The notes under the pieces: model-generated
The model's database searches: none
What the model was told of the DNA's origin: nothing
What the model saw: the letters and a program-made list of their open reading frames with translations, nothing else
Program-made: the position numbers and the translations under genes
Shown here: positions 16,313-47,149 of the stretch, piece after piece
How the letters are laid out: the number at the start of each line of letters is the position of its first letter
How positions within the stretch are numbered: position 1 is the stretch's first letter
DNA from: Deltaproteobacteria bacterium
GTDB lineage: Bacteria; Desulfobacterota; Desulfomonilia; UBA1062
Direction of reading: 5' to 3'
Length of the DNA: 64,000 nucleotides
NCBI GenBank assembly: GCA_029552245.1
Contig: JAKPDW010000086.1
Span: forward strand, 1-64,000

Positions 16313-16328
16313 TGGCATTCATCTTGCA
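16313..16328 (+). promoter_or_regulatory. sigma-54 (-24/-12) promoter
   Basis: TGGCATTCATCTTGCA matches the sigma-54 consensus TGGCAC-N5-TTGCW, with GG and GC exactly ten bases apart. Transcription would begin near 16339, giving a ~45-base leader before the exported protein at 16384. Expression would then need an ATP-dependent activator. Confidence 0.7.
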
Positions 16329-16383: not shown

Positions 16384-16869
16384 ATGACACTGTCCACCCT
16401 GAGTATGAGGCTGGTACCGATCATTCTGGTGTTGCTCGTCCCCCTCTGTGCATGGCCGTTATCGGAGGTCGACGAGAGAGAACTCGCCGACGTATCGACC
16501 CCTGCCTCGTTGAACATCATCCGGTCACCGGAGACCGTCCAGGAAAGCCTGAAGGTGGAAGGTGCACAAGCTCAGACGCAGGCAACCACCAGGGCAGGCT
16601 CTCTCAAGAGACAGCGGGAAGAACCAATCCAGGAAAAGGATATCGAGGCCATAGCGATGCCTGAGGACGTGTCCGAGACCGAGCACGATGTCAGGAAAAT
16701 CAACAAGCAATCCTATAGCATAGAGCATCCGGACGGTTCACGGATGGAATGGGGCGATGCATACCGGTTCATCATCAAGTCCGGCGATACGGAGATGAGG
16801 GATACGTTCATCCAGCAAAGGGGTGCAGAGATATCCCCGGGAAGCTGGGTCGACATCAAGCCCAGGTAA
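16384..16869 (+). CDS. hypothetical exported protein, 161 residues
   Basis: The first ~28 residues form a signal peptide: hydrophobic core RLVPIILVLLVPLCAWPLS. The mature part is polar, rich in Glu, Gln and Thr to residue ~100, then has a compact end (DGSRMEWGDAYRFIIKSGDT, then SPGSWVDIKPR). AGAGGCGG precedes the ATG; a second ATG at 16405 would still keep the signal peptide. It is the first gene behind the sigma-54 promoter at 16313 and appears monocistronic. It is probably periplasmic. No family is recognised. The neighbouring lipoprotein nucleotidase and propeller gene also have sigma-54 promoters, hinting at a shared envelope regulon. Confidence 0.65.
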   Translation: MTLSTLSMRLVPIILVLLVPLCAWPLSEVDERELADVSTPASLNIIRSPETVQESLKVEGAQAQTQATTRAGSLKRQREEPIQEKDIEAIAMPEDVSETEHDVRKINKQSYSIEHPDGSRMEWGDAYRFIIKSGDTEMRDTFIQQRGAEISPGSWVDIKPR

Positions 16870-18982: not shown

Positions 18983-19007
18983 AATTCACCTCCCTGTCTT
19001 CACGAAA

Positions 19008-19340
19008 TCAATACGCCATGGTCTTCTTGTGTGCAGTGTATGTATACGAGAGACCCCAGAGCGGTCCCGGCTTGTGCCGGCGGATCACTTCGCGACCTGG
19101 GGTCCCGCGAGAATCCCCCTGAGTCAAGGGCGAGGGAAAAACGTCCTCTCCGAGGATCACATCGAGGCCTCCCATCTCAGGAAAACTCACACACCGTTCG
19201 AGCATGTCGAAAAACGACCGAGGGCTCACCGTTTTGACATACGATACCCTGGGAAAGGGTCCTTGCACTCCCCCATCGTGACCATATCTCAGGCGGCGTC
19301 CGCTCACCTTCATCTCCCCGGCATGCGAGTGATCGTGCAT
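19008..19340 (-). CDS. doubtful 110-residue ORF in the nucleotidase leader
   Basis: An open frame from ATG 19340 ends 25 bases before the nucleotidase ATG, downstream of the sigma-54 start near 19371, so it would be on the same transcript. The product starts MHDHSHAGEMKV and is soluble. Codon bias is weaker than in clear host genes and only a weak AGG precedes the start; a second ATG preceded by GGGGAG (MKVSGRRL) is possible. It may be no more than untranslated leader. Confidence 0.22.
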   Translation of the reverse strand: MHDHSHAGEMKVSGRRLRYGHDGGVQGPFPRVSYVKTVSPRSFFDMLERCVSFPEMGGLDVILGEDVFPSPLTQGDSRGTPGREVIRRHKPGPLWGLSYTYTAHKKTMAY

Positions 19341-19381
19341 GCCTGGAGCTTCCGAAAACGTAGTGGATGGAGCATTGAACA

Positions 19382-19397
19382 TGCAATGTCACTGCCA
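19382..19397 (-). promoter_or_regulatory. sigma-54 promoter facing the 5'-nucleotidase gene
   Basis: Read on the minus strand the site is TGGCAGTGACATTGCA, with TGGCA, TTGCA and exact GG-N10-GC spacing. The start would be near 19371, giving a ~390-base leader to the nucleotidase. It shares the TGACATTGC core with the opposite promoter at 19558. Confidence 0.65.
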
Positions 19398-19466
19398 TGC
19401 CAGTCCCTTATAATTGCCTGATAATCCAATATATTATGACCGCCAGAGGGGGGGCATGAGCAATTC

Positions 19467-19485
19467 TTTTCCCCATAGGGGAAAA
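19467..19485. promoter_or_regulatory. perfect palindrome centred between two divergent sigma-54 promoters
   Basis: TTTTCCCC-ATA-GGGGAAAA (19467-19485) has perfect 8-bp arms. Its centre (19476) is ~105 bases from each inferred transcription start (about 19371 and 19584). That is the usual distance and form of an enhancer bound by a dimeric sigma-54 activator, so one site could serve both genes. Confidence 0.6.
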
Positions 19486-19557
19486 ACGGATTCCGTCCAC
19501 CCTCTCCTTCCCGGAACCTTTCCCACGATAAGAATGTTTTTTCTTTGCGTTATGTCA

Positions 19558-19573
19558 TGGCATTGACATTGCT
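19558..19573 (+). promoter_or_regulatory. sigma-54 promoter of the propeller-protein gene
   Basis: TGGCATTGACATTGCT fits the consensus at every key position with GG-N10-GC spacing. Transcription would start near 19584, ~74 bases before the ATG at 19658. Confidence 0.75.
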
Positions 19574-47133: not shown

Positions 47134-47149
47134 AGCAATATGGGTGCCA
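47134..47149 (-). promoter_or_regulatory. sigma-54 promoter of the transcarboxylase operon
   Basis: On the minus strand the site reads TGGCACCCATATTGCT, matching TGGCAC-N5-TTGCW at every defined base. Transcription would begin near 47123, with an ~80-base leader to GTG 47040. It is the best consensus match in the window. Confidence 0.8.

Follow-up and report, generated by a model that had tools for sequence, protein, structure and literature searches.

Divergent sigma-54 promoters that share one EBP (sigma-54 activator) are already known. In D. vulgaris, those of orp1 and orp2 are co-activated by the EBP DVU2106, which acts at palindromic sites located between them, as demonstrated experimentally, and IHF sites at -42/-43 of orp1 and orp2 lie between the EBP site and the promoter (PMC3897727). 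In the D. vulgaris regulome study, divergent sigma-54 promoters with one EBP are also predicted for T3SS operons (PMC4641369). A repeated unit upstream of sigma-54 sites is known from the PEP-CTERM box of the PrsK-PrsR system, a motif that is sometimes repeated, is located about 63 nt before the sigma-54 site of exported and EPS-related genes, and is attributed to an NtrC-family response regulator; its motif 1 is a 17-mer ending in TTTACA (PMC1569441). More generally, control by sigma-54 of flagella, EPS and surface proteins is a known cell-exterior theme (PMC3162934; PMC4641369).

The locus described here belongs to a 64,000-nucleotide stretch of a Deltaproteobacteria bacterium genome, hereafter the window. 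The preliminary description had placed two divergent sigma-54 promoters in it, and both are present and face outward (Table 1). The -24/-12 patterns TGGCAC-N5-TTGCW and GG-N10-GC were found at both sites, and 160 bp separate the two elements. TGGCA-N6-TTGCW occurs 28 times in the whole genome, versus 6 times for the reversed control pattern, so most of these sites should be real. The genome encodes rpoN and about 21 full-strength EBPs. Another good sigma-54 site, TGGCACCCATATTGCT (47134-47149, minus strand), lacks a tandem enhancer. The genes had been described as those of a lipoprotein 5'-nucleotidase and a giant exported propeller protein; lipoprotein and propeller were recognized as such, but "giant" overstates the size of the latter. 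The nucleotidase leader is long (~390 nt, 18983-19371) and contains an open frame on the minus strand (19008-19382). No such leader exists in the relatives G003 and G004, where 141 to 158 bp separate the promoter element from the nucleotidase start. The predicted folding of the leader was nothing unusual (z = -0.66), and an Rfam search of the window gave zero matches.

TABLE 1 Features of the divergent promoter region and of related loci (window coordinates unless a locus is named)
Feature	Position	Strand	Remarks
Sigma-54 (-24/-12) promoter TGGCAGTGACATTGCA	19382..19397	(-)	5'-nucleotidase gene; inferred start ~19371
Sigma-54 (-24/-12) promoter TGGCATTGACATTGCT	19558..19573	(+)	Propeller gene; inferred start ~19584
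Third sigma-54 promoter TGGCATTCATCTTGCA	16313..16328	(+)	Before 161-aa exported protein (16384-16869, +); absent from the preliminary description
Exported 5'-nucleotidase-family (metallophosphoesterase) lipoprotein, 597 aa	17189..18982	(-)	Metallophos + 5_nucleotid_C; lipobox-like signal
Exported beta-propeller-repeat protein, 1061 aa	19658..22843	(+)	Signal peptide and C-terminal TM segment (membrane anchor)
Predicted enhancer dyad A GCAATTCTTTTC	19460..19471	(.)	GCAA-TTCT-TTTC; 7/8 consensus bases of GAAA-N4-TTTC
Predicted enhancer dyad B AAAAACGGATTC	19482..19493	(.)	AAAA-ACGG-ATTC; 6/8 consensus bases; 22 bp from dyad A
10-bp spacer CCCATAGGGG			Between dyads A and B
Palindrome TTTTCCCC-ATA-GGGGAAAA	19467..19485	(.)	Made up of the 10-bp spacer and the inner halves of both dyads
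IHF-like site TATCAGGCAATTA	19411..19423	(-)	Exact match to WATCARN4TTR; located between the promoter and the enhancer, at about -46 relative to the nucleotidase start
GAF-GGDEF-HD-GYP locus	L133 6894-7020 and 3354-6660 (G000:C63)		Strongly conserved tandem, GAAATWTATTTC-N10-TAASAAAAGTTC in relatives

GAAA-N4-TTTC first emerged, as a weak lead, when the regions preceding every sigma-54 site were surveyed for dyads. A count of shared dyads made without a prior motif reached a maximum of 4 sequences, within the range of shuffled sequences, and was discarded. The lead became convincing with a family-wide positional search, in which GAAAN4TTTC-N86-116-sigma-54 site was matched 26 times, in 17 of the 24 genomes, and its reversed control 0 times. 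The motif was derived from these family-wide matches, the window pair not being used. Many dyad-bearing family promoters have a second dyad at 22 bp, a period first spotted with family and window sequences side by side; the model itself, a symmetric 14-bp dyad used in pairs 22 bp apart, was trained on the promoters from the family-wide search, none of which belongs to a nucleotidase/propeller pair. When periods of 12 to 60 were scanned, the peak was at 22, with a sum of 96.2 over 8 regions (61.1 at 21 and 52.3 at 23), about ten standard deviations above the sums for shuffled sequences at the same regions (-54.6 ± 14.2, maximum -5.6). The distal/proximal distances from the TGGCA, in eight cases, were 92/70, 90/68, 91/69, 91/69, 92/70, 92/70, 91/69 and 101/79, the last about one helical turn farther than the other seven (90-92/68-70 bp).

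With this model, trained on the promoters of other genes, the window tandem GCAATTCTTTTC-N10-AAAAACGGATTC was distinguished from shuffles (p = 0.0046). Its dyad centres lie 92/70 and 90/68 bp from the TGGCA of the two promoters, and it is symmetric about 19476.5, the promoter midpoint being 19477.5. The window copy is more degenerate than that of the GGDEF gene (score of 11.2 versus about 16 to 23), and dyad B alone is weak (1.5). As for IHF, the window contains 2 perfect consensus matches in 64 kb (0.77 expected), and IHF/HU-family genes were found in the genome; no match to the consensus was found on the propeller side or in the G003 and G004 intervals.

The nucleotidase is present in 2 of 4 genus-mates, G003 and G004. 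In each of them, one sigma-54 promoter precedes the nucleotidase and another faces away from it, the elements being 262 and 312 bp apart, versus 160 bp in the window. The gene on the other side is the propeller ortholog in G004; that of G003 is not, its product being, by our reading, a PKD lipoprotein that contains RCC1-like repeats. A tandem was found for each of the four promoters, GAAGAATCATTC/GAAAGATATTTC and AAAAACCATTCC/CAAGAAAATTCC in G003 and GCAAATGTTTTC/GTAAATGATTTC and GAAAATATCTTC/CCAACCGCGTTC in G004 (p ≤ 0.003 each). A separate predicted tandem would serve each promoter in the relatives, and one would serve both in the window genome. In the genus g8 genomes G016, G018 and G011, a -24/-12-like site is found about 75 to 95 bp before the nucleotidase, with a tandem in G011 (p < 0.001) and G018 (p = 0.001) and no clear tandem in G016 (p = 0.13). 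The nucleotidase orthologs of genus g4 lack both the sigma-54 site and the tandem. Neither a tandem nor a strong sigma-54 site was found for propeller homologs elsewhere in the family, in stretches that sometimes stop short of the gene start. Direct local alignment of the G003, G004 and window (G000) intergenic regions yielded nothing significant after six comparisons.

The preliminary description had assigned the activator to a perfect palindrome at the exact midpoint between the promoters, ~105 bases from each inferred start. The palindrome exists, with 8-bp arms and a 3-bp loop, at about 105 to 108 bp from each start; its centre (19476) is nearly, though not exactly, at the midpoint, being about 1.5 to 2 bp off. 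Palindromes of such size number 13 in the 64-kb window, that is, about 0.03 expected per 160 bp. The palindrome TTTTCCCC-N3-GGGGAAAA could itself be the site of another dimeric regulator, either an EBP or a repressor, the tandem dyads being incidental. Its perfect symmetry and central position would fit such a role, as would its occurring once in the genome, which is conceivable for a site dedicated to this locus: with 2 or fewer mismatches in the 16 fixed bases, no second copy was found there. However, no copy with ≤1 mismatch was found in 23 relatives, and no CCCCN3GGGG precedes a sigma-54 site at the matching distance in the 23 other family genomes. Relatives thus keep the genes without the palindrome, the outcome that the preliminary description had named as refuting, but this bears on the palindrome only: the promoters and the enhancer grammar persist in them, and with these the sigma-54 control. 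Moreover, its inverted inner halves (TTTTC...GAAAA) are already supplied by the two tandem dyads and extended by CCC/GGG in the spacer, so that only three more base pairs need to have arisen by chance, and its CCATAGG core is part of the N10 spacer, a segment that family enhancers do not have in common. We therefore consider it quite unlikely that the palindrome is the regulator's site. As a genome-wide regulon motif it was rejected (15 forward versus 20 control matches at ≤3 mismatches), and a 3-mismatch site at C70:26493, followed at 72 bp by the sigma-54 site of a flgM-like gene, was taken as chance.

The sharing of one enhancer by both promoters must also be weighed against the use of two EBPs or of separate enhancers, with the tandem serving one promoter and the other being activated from elsewhere. 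This arrangement would resemble that of G003 and G004, where every promoter has its own tandem, and a further weak dyad, GAATGTTTTTTC, does occur at 19532. Yet a single tandem was detected in the window interval, at distances from both promoters that match those in the relatives, which makes separate activation unlikely. The intergenic spacer is AT-rich relative to the genome, and in such a context the promoters and dyads could be a coincidence, the genes being transcribed from sigma-70-type promoters. Against this, divergent TGGCAN6TTGC pairs are present in both nucleotidase-bearing genus-mates, one of them with a different divergent protein, and the tandem scores far beyond shuffles, so that coincidence appears highly improbable.

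To assess specificity, about 174 kb of the window genome was scored in 160-bp tiles, excluding the 19382(-)/19558(+) interval; every tile scoring ≥8.5 was located just upstream of a sigma-54 site, in a sample that is not random because most of the sequence beyond the window was fetched for its sigma-54 sites. These tiles were those of C22 and C63, both in the training set, and of the 16313(+) promoter of the window, outside it; flagellar and metabolic sigma-54 promoters had low tandem scores. A further 307 kb of loci, drawn almost entirely from relatives, was scored as well, and almost every match was upstream of a sigma-54 site; one in L080 was a clear exception. A strong tandem (24.6) was also observed in L073 (1841-1975), before a sigma-54-like site, TAGCACGTATATTGCA, and the start of a ParA/Mrp-like ATPase (MPRVVAVTSGKGGVGK). 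The dyad tandem GTAATCTCTTTC/GACAACATTTTT precedes the 16313(+) promoter by 81/59 bp; the 161-aa protein encoded downstream matched no Pfam family and shows weak similarity (E = 0.004) to the DUF6160-like protein of L048.

The targets of GAAA-N4-TTTC include GAF-GGDEF-HD-GYP, glycosyltransferase and polysaccharide-export genes and that of a DUF6160/FilA-like exported protein. In other genera, glycosyltransferase or polysaccharide-export genes with the dyad enhancer and a sigma-54 site were seen in L118, L119, L122, L129 and L130. Two further sigma-54 sites were noted in the window genome: one (L047, C18:6365-6380, minus strand) is before a Spy/ZraP-like periplasmic protein, with an EBP gene about 3 kb away (C18:9080), and looks like a ZraSR-ZraP system; the other (L061, C43:116731, plus strand) is before a PEP-CTERM protein. 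The phosphate or nucleotide signal suggested earlier found no support, the other promoters with the GAAA-N4-TTTC enhancer pointing to cell-exterior and c-di-GMP functions, and the regulon looks like a cell-exterior one. We find it reasonably likely that genes for c-di-GMP turnover, polysaccharides and surface proteins belong to an undescribed EBP regulon of this deltaproteobacterial family, marked by paired GAAA-N4-TTTC dyads at a constant spacing of 22 bp, with one symmetric enhancer at this locus and one per promoter in the relatives.

The likeliest candidate for the EBP acting on the window enhancer is a receiver-AAA-HTH response regulator encoded in C63 (L133:3354-4742, plus strand), with GAFTGA and the receiver Asp conserved. 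The assignment, which we judge slightly more likely than not, comes from gene neighbourhood: the gene adjoins the enhancer-bearing GAF-GGDEF-HD-GYP gene in 7 of the 7 genomes read (genera g1, g4, g8 and g9), in convergent order wherever the ORF list resolved both. The candidate proteins are 78 to 91% identical to the G004 copy, and their HTH is near-invariant. The genome also encodes about 20 other EBPs as alternative activators. Identity of the candidate with PrsR was rejected (TIGR02915 score of 388.1 versus a cutoff of 502.6 bits).

Taken together, one enhancer tandem, one response-regulator EBP and two divergent sigma-54 promoters probably make up the system. The tandem score, the distances and the recurrence at orthologous promoters lend good support, by sequence model, to the earlier proposal of a single EBP for both promoters, and we infer that it binds the tandem, activates transcription and brings about co-expression of both genes. 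The 160 bp between the -24/-12 elements would constitute a bidirectional sigma-54 control region, in which the two 12-bp dyads, on a 22-bp period that places them two helical turns apart on the same face, would be bound by a single EBP of the response-regulator type. Since both sites have dyad symmetry and together are centred between the promoters, the two closed complexes would face the same geometry; with nearly equal distances from each TGGCA (90-92/68-70 bp), one activated EBP oligomer could therefore loop to either promoter. IHF probably bends the nucleotidase side.

An unconserved palindrome thus gives way to a testable enhancer grammar (unit, period and distance), a candidate activator and a set of target genes, in a lineage represented here by metagenome-assembled genomes only. 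The shared enhancer of the window and the separate ones of the relatives offer a natural comparison for how divergent sigma-54 promoters share, or compete for, a looping activator. In the literature passages searched, no description of the tandem GAAA-N4-TTTC grammar or of its set of genes was found; published motif tables may hold a match. The window unit is a GAAA-N4-TTTC dyad of 12 bp that recurs after 22 bp, unlike the 17-mer of the PEP-CTERM box, and the TTTACA of motif 1 does not occur on either strand between 19398 and 19557. Compared with orp1/orp2, the genes are different, and the window system is predicted from sequence; furthermore, the orp EBP is the cognate regulator of its cluster and has two palindromic sites, whereas the candidate EBP of the window is unlinked and would use one midpoint tandem. 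Like orp1/orp2, the window has an outward-facing sigma-54 pair with a predicted EBP site between, at activating distance from both promoters. On the nucleotidase side, though not on the propeller side, where no consensus match was found, an IHF-like site at about -46 compares with those at -42/-43 in orp1/orp2.
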